64,000 nucleotides of DNA from an uncultured Clostridia bacterium. Lineage in GTDB: Bacteria > Bacillota > Clostridia > Oscillospirales > CAG-272. Both the position numbers and the translations under genes were made by a program. Positions within the stretch are counted from its first letter, which is position 1; each line of letters begins with the position of its first letter. Shown here in pieces: positions 11,507 through 19,746 of this stretch. Location: NCBI GenBank assembly GCA_946407735.1, contig CAMJPL010000004.1, forward strand, positions 70,782-134,781. Reading direction: 5' to 3'. Below the pieces are notes generated by a model. That model worked only from the letters and a program-made list of their open reading frames with translations. It was not told the DNA's origin and did no database searches.

Positions 11507-11531
11507 GACAATCAGTTAAAACCGTGAATAA

Positions 11532-11566
11532 AAACCGTCTTTGAAACTCAAAGACGGTTTTTTTAT
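11532..11566 (+). terminator. Intrinsic terminator of secG
   Basis: AAACCGTCTTTG (11532-11543) and CAAAGACGGTTT (11549-11560) form a perfect 12-bp stem with a 5-nt loop, followed by a T-tract to 11564. Confidence 0.93.
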
Positions 11567-11567
11567 C

Positions 11568-11603
11568 TTAATGAATGACATTCATTTAATGAATGACATT
11601 CAT
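11568..11603. repeat. Two tandem perfect copies of an 18-bp palindromic unit (candidate tandem operator)
   Basis: TTAATGAATGACATTCAT occurs twice back to back (11568-11585, 11586-11603). Each unit centres on the perfect palindrome AATGAATG-A-CATTCATT. The pair sits after the secG terminator and about 75 bp upstream of the promoter of the nucleoside importer. The half-site TGAATGA resembles operators of some TetR-family regulators; that link is inference. Confidence 0.75.
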
Positions 11604-11676
11604 TATGCTGTTTCGGTAGCTATATTTATACAATATGCATAAAAAGTAAAAAAAGGAAAAAATATTCTAAATCGAG

Positions 11677-11705
11677 TTGACAAAACAGGTTTTTTCGGTT
11701 AAAAT
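11677..11705 (+). promoter_or_regulatory. Promoter of the nucleoside importer operon
   Basis: Perfect TTGACA (11677-11682), 17 nt, TAAAAT (11700-11705). Start near 11712 places the riboswitch aptamer at the head of a leader of about 230 nt. Confidence 0.9.
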
Positions 11706-11738
11706 ATAAGTGTTAATTTAATAAGCCTTTCCTGGCGC

Positions 11739-11810
11739 AAACCCGTATAGGTCCGGATAAAAGGCCCGGATGTTTCTACCGTGACGCCGACAAGTCACGA
11801 CTATTGGTTT
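11739..11810 (+). ncRNA. Guanine-type purine riboswitch aptamer
   Basis: Three-way junction of the purine class: P1 arms AAACC (11739-11743) and GGTTT (11806-11810), J1/2 TATAG, P2 11751-11756 with 11766-11771, J2/3 GTTTCTACC (11772-11780) matching the family core, P3 GTGAC/GTCAC (11781-11785, 11794-11798) and J3/1 ACTAT. The ligand-specifying position in J3/1 (11801) is C, which specifies guanine or hypoxanthine rather than adenine. Loop L2 supplies GG and L3 supplies CC for the kissing contact; both loops look a little longer than in the xpt aptamer. It lies upstream of a BMP-family nucleoside transporter, a known target class. Confidence 0.88.
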
Positions 11811-11936
11811 TCTTTTTATTATCCCGTATCCCGTTATAGGCACGGCCGCGTCCGCTTGCGGCCAGTTTACCCTGCGGCGTGTTATGGGGCTGTTTTATTT
11901 TCGGAATTCTATTTTAAACACAAATCTTTTGGAGGC
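11811..11936 (+). promoter_or_regulatory. Riboswitch expression platform and BMP ribosome binding site
   Basis: Holds a GGCCGC/GCGGCC hairpin (11844-11849, 11858-11863), a second G-rich arm ending near 11889 and a T-rich stretch TGTTTTATTTT (11891-11901) that could be a ligand-controlled terminator. GGAGG at 11931-11935 is the ribosome binding site. I could not derive a unique switching structure by eye. Confidence 0.5.
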
Positions 11937-11940
11937 AATC

Positions 11941-13152
11941 ATGAAAAAACTCATCTGCGCGCTGCTCGCCGTCGTCATGCTCGCGGCTCTCTGCGCCTGC
12001 GGGGGCTCCGGCTCCGGCGAAACCATCAAGGTCGGCCTTATCTGCATAGGCGATGAGAACGACCAGGGCTACACCTACAACTTTGTCCGCGCCACCGAGA
12101 CGGCTTCCGCCGAGCTCAAGAAGCAGGGCATCAACGTCGAATGGATAATCAAGTACAACCTCATCGAGGGTGACCCGGTCGCCGTCGCGAACGAGGAGCT
12201 CGCCGAGGAAGGCTGCGCCGTTATCTTCAACAACTCCTACGGTCAGGAACCCGCCATGCTCAGAGTGGCGCCGAACTATCCGAACGTACAGTTCGTCGGC
12301 TGCACCAACGAGGGCAGCTGGAAGGACGATCTTGACAACACCCACAACGCTTTCGCTCACATCTATGAGGGCCGCTATGTCGCCGGCGTCGCCGCCGGAA
12401 TGAAGCTCCAGCAGATGATAGACGAAGGCACCATCACCGCCGACGGCGCCATCATCGGCTATGTCGGAGCCTACTCCTTCGCCGAGGTCGTCTCCGGCTA
12501 CACCGCTTACTATCTGGGCGCCAAGTCCGTCTGCCCGTCCGTCACCATGAAGGTCCAGTTCGTCGGCTCTTGGTCCGACGCCACCCTTGAGGCCAACGCC
12601 GCTCAGGCGCTCATCGATCAGGGCTGCGTCATGATCTCCCAGCACTCCGACAACACCACCCCCGCCACCACCGCCGAGAAGGCCGGCGTCTTCCATACCG
12701 GCTACAACGCCGACATGATCTCCGCCGCTCCGAAGGCCTCGATCATCTCGACCAGGATCGACTGGACCAACTACTTCGTCTATGCCATCTCTTCCGTCGC
12801 CGCCGGCAAGAACTTTGACGCCGACTACAGCCACGGCATGAAGGACGGCGACGTCGTCATGACCGATCTCAACAAAGACATCGCCGCTCCCGGCACTCAG
12901 GAGAAGCTCGACGAGGTCATTAAGGCCATCTCCGACGGCTCTCTTAACGTCTTTGACACCTCCAAGTTCACCGTCGGCGGTCAGAGCGTCACCACCGCCC
13001 TTGCCATCGACACCGACGGCGACTTCGTCCCCGATCAGGGCGAAGCCGTTTGGGACGGCGTCTTCCATGAGTCCGAGTATCCGGGCCTCATGTCGGCTCC
13101 GTACTTCAACCTCGCCATCGACGGCATCACCAGACTGAACGAGGCTTATTAA
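11941..13152 (+). CDS. BMP-family nucleoside-binding lipoprotein of an ABC importer
   Basis: Extracytoplasmic solute-binding lipoprotein. The 403-residue product starts with a lysine-led signal peptide and lipobox LCAC, making Cys20 the lipidation site. The mature part has the BMP/PnrA look: KVGLICIGDENDQGYTYNF near its start, AVIFNNSYGQEPAM, GVAAGM and HSDNTTPATTAEK. BMP proteins bind purine nucleosides, in agreement with the guanine riboswitch upstream. The ATG at 11941 has GGAGG 5 nt upstream; in-frame codons further upstream would add residues before the signal peptide and are rejected. It is separated from the ATPase by structured spacer RNA, suggesting higher expression than the rest of the transporter. 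Confidence 0.93.
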   Translation: MKKLICALLAVVMLAALCACGGSGSGETIKVGLICIGDENDQGYTYNFVRATETASAELKKQGINVEWIIKYNLIEGDPVAVANEELAEEGCAVIFNNSYGQEPAMLRVAPNYPNVQFVGCTNEGSWKDDLDNTHNAFAHIYEGRYVAGVAAGMKLQQMIDEGTITADGAIIGYVGAYSFAEVVSGYTAYYLGAKSVCPSVTMKVQFVGSWSDATLEANAAQALIDQGCVMISQHSDNTTPATTAEKAGVFHTGYNADMISAAPKASIISTRIDWTNYFVYAISSVAAGKNFDADYSHGMKDGDVVMTDLNKDIAAPGTQEKLDEVIKAISDGSLNVFDTSKFTVGGQSVTTALAIDTDGDFVPDQGEAVWDGVFHESEYPGLMSAPYFNLAIDGITRLNEAY

Positions 13153-13336: not shown

Positions 13337-14878
13337 ATGGAAAATAAAGAAGCCGCCGTCAGCCTGAGAAATATCAGCAAATCCTTCGGCAGCATCGCGG
13401 CGAACAAGAATGTTTCGCTCGACATAAACCGGGGCGAGATACTCTCCCTTCTGGGCGAGAACGGTTCCGGAAAAACGACGCTGATGAATATGCTGGCCGG
13501 TATCTACTATCCCGACTCCGGCCAGATCTTTGTCGACGGCAGAGAGGTCAGGATAGCCTCTCCGCGCGACGCTTACGACTGCGGGATCGGCATGATACAT
13601 CAGCATTTCAAGCTTGTGGATGTACTGACGGCGGCAGAAAACGTCGTGCTCGGGCTGGAAGGCCCGTTAATGCTCGACATGCCTAAGGCTTCCGCGAAAA
13701 TCAGGGAGATCTGCGACAGATACGATTTCAGCGTACACCCGGACAAAAAGGTGTATGACATGTCGGTCTCCGAGAAGCAGACGCTTGAGATAATCAAGGT
13801 GCTTTACCGCGGCGCCGACATCCTGATCCTTGACGAGCCGACAGCCGTCCTTACCCCTCAGGAGACAAACAGGCTTTTCAACGTCCTGCGGCAGATGAAG
13901 GCTGACGGCAAATCCATCGTCATAATCACTCACAAGCTGCATGAGGTTATGGCCATCGCCGACCGCGTCGCCGTCCTCCGAAAGGGGGAGTACATCGGCG
14001 AGATGATGGTGAGCGAGACCAATCCTCAGGAAATGACGAACATGATGGTCGGCCACACGGTAAGCCTCAATATCGAGCGCCCGGAGCCGGTCGATCCTCA
14101 GCCGCGCCTCACAGTATCGGGGCTCACGGTCGTCAGCGACGAAGGCGTCCTCAAGCTGGACAACGTCTCGTTCACGGCTATGGGCGGAGAGATCCTCGGC
14201 ATCGCCGGGATATCGGGATCGGGTCAGAAGGAGCTCCTCGAGTCTATCGCCGGATTGTGTCCGATAAAGGAAGGCTCTATCATCTTCACCCCGAAGGACA
14301 AGCCGGCCCGTGAGCTCGTAGGGCTGACTCCTACAAAGATCAAGGACGCCGGCATCGCAATGGCCTTCGTCCCGGAGGACCGCCTCGGGATGGGTCTCGT
14401 CGGCGGCATGGGCATGACCGGCAACATGATGCTTCGCTCATGGAGGCTCGGGAAGGGCGTTTTCGTCGAGAGGAAGAAGCCTGACGAGCTGGCGAGGAAG
14501 CTCAAGGACGAGCTCGGCGTCGTAACCCCCGATGTCGATTATCCGGTCCGCCGCCTGTCCGGAGGCAACGTGCAGAAGGTCCTTGTCGGCCGCGAGATAG
14601 CGACCGTGCCGTCGGTGCTGATGACGGCTTACGCCGTGAGAGGTCTCGACATCAACACGTCGTACACGATATACAACCTCATGACAGAGCAGAAGCAGAA
14701 AGGGACGGCGGTGATCTTCGTCGGAGAGGATCTTGACGTCCTGCTCGAGCTCTGCGACCGCATACTCGTCCTCTGCGACGGAAAGGTCACCGGGATCGTG
14801 AAAGCCGGAGAGGCCACAAAGGAAGAAGTCGGGCTTATGATGACTCATATTGACAGCGGAAAGGAAGCGGCCGAATGA
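13337..14878 (+). CDS. Nucleoside ABC importer ATP-binding protein (two fused ATPase domains)
   Basis: Tandem ABC ATPase of the carbohydrate/nucleoside uptake type, 513 residues. Domain 1 has Walker A GENGSGKTTL (about 45-54), the IGMIHQHFKLV Q-loop region, signature MSVSEKQ and Walker B ILILDEPTAVLTP. Domain 2 has a degenerate Walker A (GISGSGQKELL), signature RRLSGGNVQK and a changed Walker B region reading LMTAYAVRGLD in place of the usual PTRGLD form. One intact and one relaxed ATP site is known in this family. It overlaps the first permease by ATGA. Confidence 0.94.
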   Translation: MENKEAAVSLRNISKSFGSIAANKNVSLDINRGEILSLLGENGSGKTTLMNMLAGIYYPDSGQIFVDGREVRIASPRDAYDCGIGMIHQHFKLVDVLTAAENVVLGLEGPLMLDMPKASAKIREICDRYDFSVHPDKKVYDMSVSEKQTLEIIKVLYRGADILILDEPTAVLTPQETNRLFNVLRQMKADGKSIVIITHKLHEVMAIADRVAVLRKGEYIGEMMVSETNPQEMTNMMVGHTVSLNIERPEPVDPQPRLTVSGLTVVSDEGVLKLDNVSFTAMGGEILGIAGISGSGQKELLESIAGLCPIKEGSIIFTPKDKPARELVGLTPTKIKDAGIAMAFVPEDRLGMGLVGGMGMTGNMMLRSWRLGKGVFVERKKPDELARKLKDELGVVTPDVDYPVRRLSGGNVQKVLVGREIATVPSVLMTAYAVRGLDINTSYTIYNLMTEQKQKGTAVIFVGEDLDVLLELCDRILVLCDGKVTGIVKAGEATKEEVGLMMTHIDSGKEAAE

Positions 14879-15990
14879 CAGCGTCTCAGACTAAAGCATC
14901 GAACAGACGGAAGCGCGAGCCGCTCTTCCATCTCGCGAAACGGACGGATATAAACCCGAAGCGCGCCTGGATGGTGCGCGGGATATCGTTCCTCGCCGCC
15001 ATCGTTATCGGCGGGCTGATATTCCTCATAATCGGCAACAATCCGTTTTCCGCCTACGGATATATCGTCAGCGGAGCTCTCGGCAAAAAGGTCGCCATCA
15101 GACAGACCGTCAAATTCGCGATACCTCTGCTAGGAACGGCTCTCGCCATTGCTCCCTGCTTCAAGATGCGCTTCTGGAACATCGGAGCCGAGGGGCAGAT
15201 AACGGCCGGAGCGATAGGAGCGACATTCTTCGCGCTGAATTACGCCAACACGATGCCAAAGCCGCTGCTTCTGCTCGTCATGGCGGTCGGCGGCGCTCTC
15301 TGCGGCGGCATATGGGCGCTCATCCCGGCGGTCTTCAAGGCCAAATGGGGCACCAACGAGACGCTTTTCACGCTGATGATGAACTACATCGTCATCGGCC
15401 TCGTCAAGTATCTGCAGGGCGGCCCGTGGGAAGGAAAGCCGGGCAGCCAGATCATCCCCGATTTCAGTCAGAACGCCGTCCTGCCGAAGGTCTTCGGAGT
15501 TCACTGCGGCTGGATAATCGTGCTCCTTCTCGTGATTTTCATATACGTCTACATGAATTACACCAAGCACGGATATGAGATCGCGGTCATCGGAGACAGC
15601 GTGAACACGGCGCGGTACGCCGGTATGGACGTCGCGCTGATCACTATGCGGACGATGTTCATGTCCGGCGCCATATGCGGCCTTGTCGGCTTCATGGTAT
15701 GCTCCGGCGCGAACATGACGCTCTATCACAGCGTTGCCGACGGAGTCGGCTTCACGGCGATCACGGTCGCGTGGCTGGCTCAGCTCAACCCGTTCGCCAT
15801 GATGGCCATTTCCCTGCTTCTTGCCATCCTCGACAAAGGCGCGGGAGACCTCCAGACTTACATGAAGGTGCCGACTTCCATCGCCGACATCATCACCGGC
15901 ATATTCCTGTTCTGCATGCTCGCGAGCGAATTCTTCATCAATTACCGTATCATAATCAACCATGAGAGCAGCGGGGAGGCGTCGAAATGA
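14875..15990 (+). CDS. Nucleoside ABC importer permease 1
   Basis: Membrane subunit of the BPD_transp_2 (YufP-like) family, 371 residues with roughly eight to ten hydrophobic helices. The first is at about 34-52 after a basic cytoplasmic N-terminus. Family marks include FRMRFWNIGAEGQI-like text (here CFKMRFWNIGAEGQITAG), WGTNETLFTLMMNYI and the EIAVIGDSVNTARYAG cytoplasmic loop that contacts the ATPase. Start by ATGA overlap with the ATPase; stop overlaps permease 2 in the same way, so the three subunits are translationally coupled. Confidence 0.93.
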   Translation: MTASQTKASNRRKREPLFHLAKRTDINPKRAWMVRGISFLAAIVIGGLIFLIIGNNPFSAYGYIVSGALGKKVAIRQTVKFAIPLLGTALAIAPCFKMRFWNIGAEGQITAGAIGATFFALNYANTMPKPLLLLVMAVGGALCGGIWALIPAVFKAKWGTNETLFTLMMNYIVIGLVKYLQGGPWEGKPGSQIIPDFSQNAVLPKVFGVHCGWIIVLLLVIFIYVYMNYTKHGYEIAVIGDSVNTARYAGMDVALITMRTMFMSGAICGLVGFMVCSGANMTLYHSVADGVGFTAITVAWLAQLNPFAMMAISLLLAILDKGAGDLQTYMKVPTSIADIITGIFLFCMLASEFFINYRIIINHESSGEASK

Positions 15991-16976
15991 GTATCTTAAA
16001 TTCCATTTTGGCGCTTGTGATCGCCGCCATACTGAACGGCACTCCCCTTCTCTTCGGCACTATGGGTGAGATACTCACCGAGAAATCCGGCAACATGAAC
16101 CTCGGCGTCGAGGGTATGATGTACATGGGCGGCGCGGTCGGGCTCGCCGGAGCCTTCTACTACGGCAAGGCCGCCGGGGAAAGCGCCTTCGGACCTGCCG
16201 CCGTCATCATCGCGATACTCTGCGCGTTCATTGCCGGAGCCTTCGGGGCGCTGATATTCAGCTTCATAACCATTTCCCTGCGCGCGAACCAGAACGTCAC
16301 AGGCCTCGCGCTGGCGATATTCGGCACGGGAGCCGGTCAGTTCATCGGTGAATTCATGAGAACGAAGGAAGGCGGCTTCGTCGCTGTCTCGAACGAGATG
16401 AAGGCGGCGTTCCAGGGCTCGCCGTTCCCGAAATTCCTGCAGGATATACCGTACGTCGGACAGCTGCTCTTCCAGCAGAATATATTCGTGTATCTCGGCA
16501 TAATCCTCGCTCTCGCGATGGCCTTCTTCATCAGCCGCACACGCTTCGGGCTGAATCTCCGCTCCGTCGGCGAATCGCCCGCGACGGCTGACGCGGCCGG
16601 AATCAACATCACGAGATACAAGTATCTCGCGACGATCATCGGCGGTGGAATATCGGCTATCGGCGGCATGGTATATATCATGACTATCGCCGGATGCGTC
16701 TGGAACCATGAGGGACTTTCCGGCGAAGGATGGCTGGCGGTCGCGCTCGTCATCTTCTGCCTGTGGAAGCCGCAGAACGCCCTGTGGGGCTCCGCCCTGT
16801 TCGGCGCTCTTATGATACTGTATCTGCGTCTCCCGCTCGCAATACCGAACGAAATATACAAGATCCTGCCCTACTTCGTGACGGTGATAGTGCTCGTCGT
16901 TACAAGCCTGAGAAAGAAGCGCGAGAATCAGCCTCCGGCAAGCCTCGGACTCGCTTATTTCAGAGAGGACAGATAA
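15987..16976 (+). CDS. Nucleoside ABC importer permease 2
   Basis: Second membrane subunit, YufQ-like, 329 residues. Characteristic text: TPLLFGTMGEILTEKSGNMN and LGVEGMMYMGG at the N-terminus, ANQNVTGLALAIFGTG in the middle, and NLRSVGESPATADAAGI as the ATPase-contact loop. About nine helices. With the lipoprotein, ATPase and permease 1 it completes an importer presumably for purine nucleosides. A perfect terminator follows at 17049. Confidence 0.93.
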   Translation: MSILNSILALVIAAILNGTPLLFGTMGEILTEKSGNMNLGVEGMMYMGGAVGLAGAFYYGKAAGESAFGPAAVIIAILCAFIAGAFGALIFSFITISLRANQNVTGLALAIFGTGAGQFIGEFMRTKEGGFVAVSNEMKAAFQGSPFPKFLQDIPYVGQLLFQQNIFVYLGIILALAMAFFISRTRFGLNLRSVGESPATADAAGINITRYKYLATIIGGGISAIGGMVYIMTIAGCVWNHEGLSGEGWLAVALVIFCLWKPQNALWGSALFGALMILYLRLPLAIPNEIYKILPYFVTVIVLVVTSLRKKRENQPPASLGLAYFREDR

Positions 16977-17398: not shown

Positions 17399-18403
17399 TC
17401 AGTGCTTCTTGGAGACTACGACAGCAGTTCCGAGAGCGGCGACAGCGGCGAGGATCGCGACAGCGGCGACATCACCGGTCTGAGCGGCGGTAGCGGCAGC
17501 GGCCGGAGCGGCAACGGCTACAGGAGCAGCGGTCTCAGCGACAGGAGCGGCAGCCGGAGCGGGAGCAGCCTCAGCGGCAGGAGCCGGAGCGGCCTCAGCA
17601 GCCGGAGCGGGAGCTTCGGTCTCGGGAGCGGGAGCCTCAGTCTCGGGAGCGGCGGGCTCTACGATAACGCCGAGGGTTACGATAGCGCCGTCGGTGTAGG
17701 AGCCGGCCCAGCAGCCTCCTCCGTACTCAACGATTAACTTCTCGCCTTCAGCGTACTGCTCGGTGGTATGAGCGTTGGCAGCGAAGTTCAGGATGAACTT
17801 GGAGCCGGTGTCATAGGTGAGGGTGTTGGAACGATCAACGAAGGTCCACGGAATACCGAACTCATAGGTAGAGATCTTGGTGGACTCATCGTAGGTAGCG
17901 AAATGCTGCCACGGGAGATCAGCGTTGGTGTAAACATCCTCGTTGTTCATAGCGCACTTGATCGGAGCGGCGCCGGAGATCTTCCACATCTGGGTGCCTT
18001 CCTCAGAGAGGCCGGCGCCGATCTCGAAGCGCTGAGTGTCGTCATCATAGTCGCCGTCGGTAGCGATTACGGAAACGTAACCGGCATTGCCGATACCCAT
18101 GTTGTGAGCGTCATCCTCAGAGTCGGGACCCCAAGCAGGGTTAACAACCTCAAGGAAAACGTACAGGTTGGTCTTATCCCAGGAAGCGTAGGCCTTACCC
18201 TGAACGACGTGATCGGGATCGTTGTCGTCGGTGTAGGTGTCGGTGGTCCAGAAGTCGCTGAGGAACTGATAGGTCTCATCGAGCTTGCCATCGATAACCA
18301 TAGGAGTATAAGTTCCGTCAAGAGTGATCTGGTCCTGGGCGAAAGCCGGGACTGCCATAGCCAGCAGCATAACCGCTACTACGGCAAAAGCTAACTTTTT
18401 CAT
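17399..18403 (-). CDS. Surface protein with CBM9/DOMON-like domain and Ala/Pro-rich anchor
   Basis: Predicted exported surface protein, 334 residues, function unknown. A signal peptide (MKKLAFAVV..., cleavage after AFA near 22) precedes a beta-sandwich of the CBM9/DOMON-like type: VIDGKLDETY, AYASWDKTNLYVFLEV, RFEIGAGLSEEG and YEFGIPWTFVDR. Then comes a low-complexity linker of repeated EAPAPETEAPAP and AAEAAPAP units, the motif AAQTGD, a hydrophobic helix and a terminal SKKH. The end resembles a sortase signal without the usual leading L/N-P. AGGAGG precedes the ATG and the promoter is very strong, suggesting abundance. A close paralogue lies directly upstream (18724-19716). Confidence 0.75.
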   Translation of the reverse strand: MKKLAFAVVAVMLLAMAVPAFAQDQITLDGTYTPMVIDGKLDETYQFLSDFWTTDTYTDDNDPDHVVQGKAYASWDKTNLYVFLEVVNPAWGPDSEDDAHNMGIGNAGYVSVIATDGDYDDDTQRFEIGAGLSEEGTQMWKISGAAPIKCAMNNEDVYTNADLPWQHFATYDESTKISTYEFGIPWTFVDRSNTLTYDTGSKFILNFAANAHTTEQYAEGEKLIVEYGGGCWAGSYTDGAIVTLGVIVEPAAPETEAPAPETEAPAPAAEAAPAPAAEAAPAPAAAPVAETAAPVAVAAPAAAATAAQTGDVAAVAILAAVAALGTAVVVSKKH

Positions 18404-18723: not shown

Positions 18724-19716
18724 TCAGTGCTTTCTTGAAACCACAACGGCGGTTCCGAGAGCGGCGACAGCGGCGAGAACCGCGATGGCGGCGACGTCAC
18801 CGGTCTGAGCGGCGGGAGCGGCAGCGGCCGGAGCGGCAGCGGCTACGGGAGCGGCTGTCTCAGCGACAGGAGCGGCGGCCGGAGCGGGAGCAGCCTCAGC
18901 GGCGGGAGCCGGAGCGGCCTCAGCGGCCGGAGCGGCAGTCTCGGGAGCGGCGGTCTCGGGCTCATCCTCTACAACGATCTGATACTCACCGAGGGTGACA
19001 ACACCGCCGTCGGTGTAAGAGCCGGCCCAGCATCCGCCGCCGTACTCAACGATGTGGCTGTTGCCTTCGGCGTACTCTTCGGTGGTGTGGACGTTGGCGG
19101 CATAGTTGAAGATGAACTTGGTGCCGACGTCATAGTTGATGGTGCCGGTACGGTCCATGAAGTTCCACGGAATACCGAACTCATACCACGCGCACTTGTT
19201 GGCGGTGTCGTTTACGCAGTAATGCTCGAACGGAGCGACCTCAAAGACGTTCTGATCGGCGGAGGAGTCCTTCAGATCGGCAGGTCCGGAGACCTTCCAC
19301 ATCTGAGTGCCTTCCTCAGCGATACCGCAGCCGATCTCGAAGCGCTGGGTGTCGTCGTCATAATCGCCGTCGGTGGCGAGGCAGGAGACGTAGCCGGCGT
19401 TGCCGAGACCGATATCAATGGCGCGGTCCTCGGTTACGGGGCCCCAGTTCTCATAATAGGCCTCGATCATCACATAGAGACCCCATTTGTCCCATGTGGC
19501 GTAAGCGGCGCCCTTTATGGTCTTGTCAGGGTCATAGGCGTCGGAGAAGTTATCGACTTCATAGAAGTTATGAAGCTTTACATAGCAGTCATCGAGAACG
19601 CCGTCGATGACGGGAGCGGTGCTCGTGCCGGGAAGCGTGAAAGCGTCGTCGGCAAAGGACGGGATCGCCATAGCCAGAAGCATGGCGGCGACCAGCGCGA
19701 ATGCTAATTTTCTCAT
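18724..19716 (-). CDS. Surface protein, paralogue of the 17399-18403 product
   Basis: 330 residues with the same order as its neighbour: signal peptide (MRKLAFALV, cleavage near SFA), CBM9/DOMON-like domain (VIDGVLDDCY, AYATWDKWGLYVMIEAYY, RFEIGCGIAEEG, YEFGIPWNFMDR), Ala/Pro-rich linker, AAQTGD, hydrophobic helix, SRKH end. I start at the ATG at 19716, which has AGGAGGA 8-14 nt upstream; an earlier in-frame start would add eight residues before the signal peptide. The N-terminal, GGGCWAGSYTDG and C-terminal parts are nearly identical to the neighbour while the ligand-facing middle differs. This points to tandem duplication followed by divergence in binding. Confidence 0.75.
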   Translation of the reverse strand: MRKLAFALVAAMLLAMAIPSFADDAFTLPGTSTAPVIDGVLDDCYVKLHNFYEVDNFSDAYDPDKTIKGAAYATWDKWGLYVMIEAYYENWGPVTEDRAIDIGLGNAGYVSCLATDGDYDDDTQRFEIGCGIAEEGTQMWKVSGPADLKDSSADQNVFEVAPFEHYCVNDTANKCAWYEFGIPWNFMDRTGTINYDVGTKFIFNYAANVHTTEEYAEGNSHIVEYGGGCWAGSYTDGGVVTLGEYQIVVEDEPETAAPETAAPAAEAAPAPAAEAAPAPAAAPVAETAAPVAAAAPAAAAPAAQTGDVAAIAVLAAVAALGTAVVVSRKH

Positions 19717-19746
19717 AATATAATCCTCCTTTTGGATCATACGTTA

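Follow-up and report, generated by a model that had tools for sequence, protein, structure and literature searches.

A guanine-class riboswitch ahead of four genes for an ABC importer that probably takes up purine nucleobases

What does the RNA at the head of a BMP-type importer operon sense, and what does the importer carry? These questions arise from a 64 kb stretch of DNA from an uncultured gut bacterium of the Clostridia, referred to here as the window, in which a preliminary description made from the letters alone placed a guanine riboswitch ahead of the operon and assigned purine nucleosides as the likely cargo. The analysis presented here favors, as the probable reading, a guanine-I riboswitch in the 5' leader that would switch off, by transcription termination, a four-gene ABC importer that most likely serves purine nucleobases. 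P1 is the one unusual stem in a riboswitch of a known kind, and what the analysis adds is chiefly the revised cargo.

The aptamer comprises the following elements.

11723–11823 (core 11739–11810), + strand: purine riboswitch aptamer within its Rfam limits (RF00167 match)
11739–11746, + strand: 5' strand of P1 (AAACCCGU), partner 11803–11810, with a C11744·U11805 mismatch and a G11745·U11804 wobble (folding, aptamer comparison)
11751–11771, + strand: P2-L2 hairpin of six pairs, with an A11757·C11765 mismatch next to the loop, UAAAAGG as L2 and G37/G38 at 11763–11764
11772–11779, + strand: J2/3 GUUUCUAC, containing U51, with guanine-I identity and no insertion (Rfam alignment, aptamer comparison, PMC9295807)
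11780–11799, + strand: P3-L3 hairpin of six pairs with an 8-nt loop, C60/C61 at 11787–11788
11800–11810, + strand: J3/1 (ACU), whose C74 at 11801 is predicted to form the Watson-Crick pair with guanine, together with the 3' strand of P1 (Rfam alignment, folding)

The covariance search proposed in the preliminary description gave a clear answer. When the window was scanned against the 4227 families of Rfam 15, RF00167 (Purine) was the single family above threshold in the whole 64 kb, with a match at 11723–11823 on the + strand that covers model positions 1–102 of 102 at 50.3 bits (gathering score 37, E 1.6e-5). The same search over the 3.57-Mb genome returned this copy and no other. J1/2 reads UAUA, the junctions listed in the preliminary description are present as J2/3 GUUUCUAC and J3/1 ACUA, with the ligand-pairing C74 at 11801, and the loops carry the expected GG (11763–11764) and CC (11787–11788). 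The guanine-I class is defined by U22, U51, C74 and an uninterrupted J2/3 (PMC9295807); the window aptamer has all four, so guanine is the predicted ligand, and the equivalent of C74 is unchanged across all aptamers compared. By these bases the aptamer is an ordinary guanine-I riboswitch, with selective guanine binding predicted. A variant ligand class was considered for it and set aside on the basis of J2/3 and C74.

The stems agree with the preliminary description only in part. P2 and P3 are complementary as claimed, while P1 is interrupted by the C11744·U11805 mismatch and the neighboring G11745·U11804 wobble, leaving seven further possible pairs, wobble included. In a comparison of 18 aptamers, only the window member has the C·U mismatch; its 17 counterparts all form a standard pair at this third position of P1, and its own inner pairs are otherwise standard (17 of 18). 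Over all 18 aptamers, standard pairs make up 91% of the 18 inner pairs, as against 63% (maximum 69%) with partners shuffled, a control that deals partners anew and ignores the relatedness of the aptamers. The loops, which had been thought longer than usual and a possible cause of altered tuning, are not expanded: U20 to G46 spans 26 nt, equal to the family consensus, and C54 to A73 spans 20 nt against a consensus of 21, making the P2/L2 arm of consensus length and the P3/L3 arm one base shorter. Both arms have lost their outermost loop-side pair, which is A·C in P2 and leaves P3 with six pairs. The genuine peculiarity of this aptamer is P1, not the loops, and any unusual tuning would lie in the mismatched P1. 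In contrast to the window aptamer, relatives G008 and G004 have L2 arms 8 and 11 bases longer. Guanine-type aptamers near 1501–1611 of loci L011 and L012 have P2/L2 arms 8 and 11 bases above consensus.

The leader contains three further elements.

11677–11705, + strand: sigma-70-type promoter, TTGACA-17-TAAAAT, 11 of 12 consensus matches (promoter scan)
11822–11901, + strand: candidate intrinsic terminator, a long imperfect hairpin (11822–11889) followed by CTG and TTTTATTTT (folding)
11930–11935, + strand: Shine-Dalgarno sequence TGGAGG, 5 nt 5' of the start codon (sequence)

The promoter at 11677–11705 is the best of three promoter-like sites (0.7 expected), and transcription probably starts near 11712. 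The preceding gene, secG, ends with a perfect 15-bp terminator at 11530–11562, and 118 bp separate the aptamer from the importer operon; promoter, aptamer and gene stand in that order. Upstream of the −35 box by about 75–110 bp, two tandem 17-bp palindromes AATGAATGACATTCATT lie 18 bp apart (window 11568–11605). They occur nowhere else in the genome, nor in the other loci retrieved. The pair resembles a regulator's operator, TetR-type in style, and would give the importer a second control; a search of the window's contig for a TetR_N gene found none.

The candidate terminator of the window leader is poor when taken by itself. Its hairpin folds at −29.9 kcal/mol with a weak z of −1.5 (12 of 200 shuffles equally good), a simple terminator scan missed it, and the leader as a whole is no more stable than its shuffles (z 0.13). 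All nine related leaders place a hairpin and then a T-rich tract between aptamer and gene; most have cleaner terminator-like hairpins than the window leader, and those of G061 and G021 are much better than chance (z −4.5 and −4.4). Constrained folding for an antiterminator between the 3' strand of P1 and the 5' arm of the terminator found nothing convincing. In the full-length minimum-energy fold the P2/L2 region pairs with GGGGCUGUUUUAUUUUCGG; this pairing was rejected as an antiterminator because it forms only once the U tract has been made. Pairings of an upstream GCCUUUCC with the Shine-Dalgarno sequence or with AAAGGC of L2, judged by eye, were imperfect or absent in relatives and were also set aside.

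Guanine riboswitches commonly turn down genes for purine synthesis, salvage and uptake at high guanine (PMC9295807), and those of C. difficile include four OFF switches (PMC11477304). Judged by family and comparison, guanine-dependent termination is the likeliest mechanism here, and we infer it for the window leader. With guanine (or hypoxanthine or xanthine) in short supply, transcription would continue through the leader and the importer would be made. Abundant guanine would pair with C74 and close the three-way junction and P1, and the hairpin at 11822–11889 with its U-rich tail would then halt transcription ahead of bmp, giving an OFF switch.

The operon under this leader consists of four genes.

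11941–13152, + strand: solute-binding lipoprotein of the BMP family, 403 aa with a lipobox-like LCAC, AtzT/3s99-like (PF02608 E 1.6e-24; PDB sequence matches; fold)
13337–14878, + strand: ABC ATPase with two ABC_tran stretches (Pfam)
14875–15990, + strand: ABC permease 1 (BPD_transp_2, PF02653 E 6.6e-32), overlapping the ATPase gene by 4 bp
15987–16976, + strand: ABC permease 2 (BPD_transp_2, PF02653 E 3.2e-29), overlapping permease 1 by 4 bp

The lipoprotein scores 86.9 bits against PF02608 (gathering score 24.1) and is the only protein of that family found in the genome. The NCBIfam 'B6 transporter' names for the ATPase and permeases were dropped, their scores lying far under the cut-offs. 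Elsewhere the genome carries one gene each for xpt, hpt and an NCS2-type permease (for xpt and hpt, one each over the cut-off). Window 17399–18403 and 18724–19740 on the − strand encode two secreted proteins that resemble each other and carry long Ala/Pro/Glu-rich tails; the one at 17399–18403 has no Pfam or NCBIfam match.

Among solved structures, the binding protein is closest in sequence to 3s99 (E 2e-38) and AtzT (1e-31), with the nucleoside binders far behind in the profile search. An AlphaFold model for which the window and the loci supplied the sequences (mean pLDDT 88.3) likewise lies nearer to these two than to the nucleoside binders: Z 42.7 over 332 residues at 2.1 Å for AtzT (6pi5) and Z 41.0 over 330 residues at 2.5 Å for Brucella 3s99, compared with 34.4 for Lbp with guanosine, 32.2 for PnrA and 31.5 for BmpD. 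AtzT was purified with guanine, which it binds with an affinity of 0.11 µM in a pocket formed by Tyr45, Ser97, the Phe98 backbone, Glu165, Trp194, Asn218 and Asn220 (PMC6834077). Counted along the printed alignment, these positions map to Y44, S99, Y100, E182, W211, H235 and D237, which are invariant in 21 homologues, Y100 excepted. The Tyr, Ser, Glu and Trp of AtzT are thus kept, while Asn218 and Asn220 are replaced by His235 and Asp237, as in 3s99, and the base preference of AtzT is therefore not transferable. The sequence matches, the fold and the aligned pocket residues suggest purine nucleobases, for example guanine, in place of nucleosides as the cargo. Once imported, such bases would enter salvage through phosphoribosyltransferases.

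Other genomes show how far this arrangement extends. The nearest orthologues, with 75–79% identity, belong to assemblies of Clostridia and Oscillospiraceae, and ruminant gut is the source of several. RF00167 occurs in 14 of 97 genomes searched, and 7 of the 14, the window genome included, have the aptamer upstream of orthologous bmp (the others being G021, G061, G031, G008, G004 and G076, the last with xpt in between). Three of 80 further loci (L045, L048 and L052) do so as well, bringing to nine the other loci with a similar aptamer ahead of orthologous bmp. Together with the RF00167 and PF02608 matches, this recurrence bears out the earlier claim of a guanine-class riboswitch ahead of a BMP-type ABC importer. 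In the DNA examined, the majority of orthologous bmp loci lack a purine aptamer, which makes the association a recurrent yet optional one. No paper that reports a guanine riboswitch ahead of a BMP importer was found in the open library, which does not prove absence. Upstream of bmp, xpt is the adjacent gene in 18 of the 80 loci, and ygeY, ygeW and carbamate kinase (arcC) occur in six (L054, L058, L059, L069, L079 and L105); these three genes are part of the anaerobic purine-breakdown gene set.

The remaining aptamers sit before purF-like, xpt, guanine deaminase-like, YgjV-like and uridine-kinase-like genes, purF, and the xpt of L008 and L013, having been named from sequence by eye. Two relatives (L006 954–1490 and L010 866–1477, −) have a purine aptamer ahead of a small YgjV-like membrane protein that is possibly purine-related. 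Guanine-type aptamers at L060 2940–3037 and L007 1501–1596 lie immediately 5' of guanine deaminase-like genes.

How else could the locus be explained? The same riboswitch might control an importer of purine nucleosides, as PnrA, BmpD and Lbp would lead one to expect: the BMP family (PF02608) includes characterized nucleoside receptors (PMC7093131), and a clostridial member, Lbp, was crystallized with guanosine and superimposes on the lipoprotein model at Z 34.4. This is the cargo that the preliminary description drew from the riboswitch, and it is unlikely, given that AtzT and 3s99 are clearly closer in both sequence and fold, that the base-sandwich pocket keeps its Tyr, Ser, Glu and Trp side chains, and that the xpt product of orthologous operons acts on the free base.

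Two other explanations concern the RNA rather than the cargo. The aptamer may act through translation, or it may be a relaxed or decaying switch in which a weakened P1 and a poor terminator leave slight or no control. The P1 mismatch with its adjacent G·U and a terminator-like hairpin that is mostly cleaner in the leaders of relatives point that way, but the junction bases are all intact, P1 retains its seven other possible pairs, and holding the aptamer in its native structure raises the energy by just 2.6 kcal/mol over the free fold, with the contribution of the ligand still to be added. This explanation, in either form, is improbable. That the ligand is another purine (xanthine, adenine or 2'-deoxyguanosine) is very improbable: variant classes share the architecture (PMC9295807) and the C. 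difficile CD2704 riboswitch is reported to respond to xanthine (PMC11477304), but C74, U51, U22 and the uninterrupted J2/3 misfit the adenine, xanthine-II and 2'-dG signatures as described in PMC9295807. The preferred reading remains a guanine-responsive leader controlling a purine nucleobase importer.

Riboswitch, pocket and neighboring genes together give a testable cargo for importers otherwise called nucleoside transporters by family. Should purine bases be their cargo, these importers probably give dietary and host purines a way into gut bacteria that salvage or degrade purines. A broader proposal, put forward tentatively and at slightly under even chances, is that gut Clostridia and spirochaetes share a clade of nucleobase ABC importers with BMP-fold receptors of the AtzT/3s99 branch, an optional guanine riboswitch and links to xpt and to ygeY-ygeW-arcC, to which the window genome adds a weakened P1. 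If the clade is real, receptors of this branch are easily mislabeled as nucleoside transporters; if the effect of P1 is real, shut-off in the window genome would require more guanine.

A comparison with known systems places both RNA and protein. Like guanine-I riboswitches of the B. subtilis xpt-pbuX type (RF00167), the window aptamer has a three-way junction with J1/2 UAUA, J2/3 GUUUCUAC and C74, GG in L2 and CC in L3, and it stands in the 5' leader of an operon for purine uptake. Unlike them, it has a C·U mismatch at the third P1 pair; its L2 UAAAAGG and L3 CCGACAA deviate from the consensus, and the genes under it encode a BMP-type ABC importer, in contrast to an NCS2-type permease or xpt.

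Among proteins, AtzT (6pi5) and 3s99 are the nearest solved relatives by sequence and fold and have the Tyr/Ser/Glu/Trp pocket in common with the lipoprotein, despite only about 26–31% identity. The His/Asp pair is shared with 3s99, in which adenine is modeled. Unlike either, the lipoprotein is of Gram-positive type and its operon holds its own ATPase and permeases. PnrA, BmpD and Lbp share the BMP fold, the Pfam family and the role of substrate-binding part of an ABC importer, but they are more distant, at Z 31–34 against 41–43 and about 17–19% identity.
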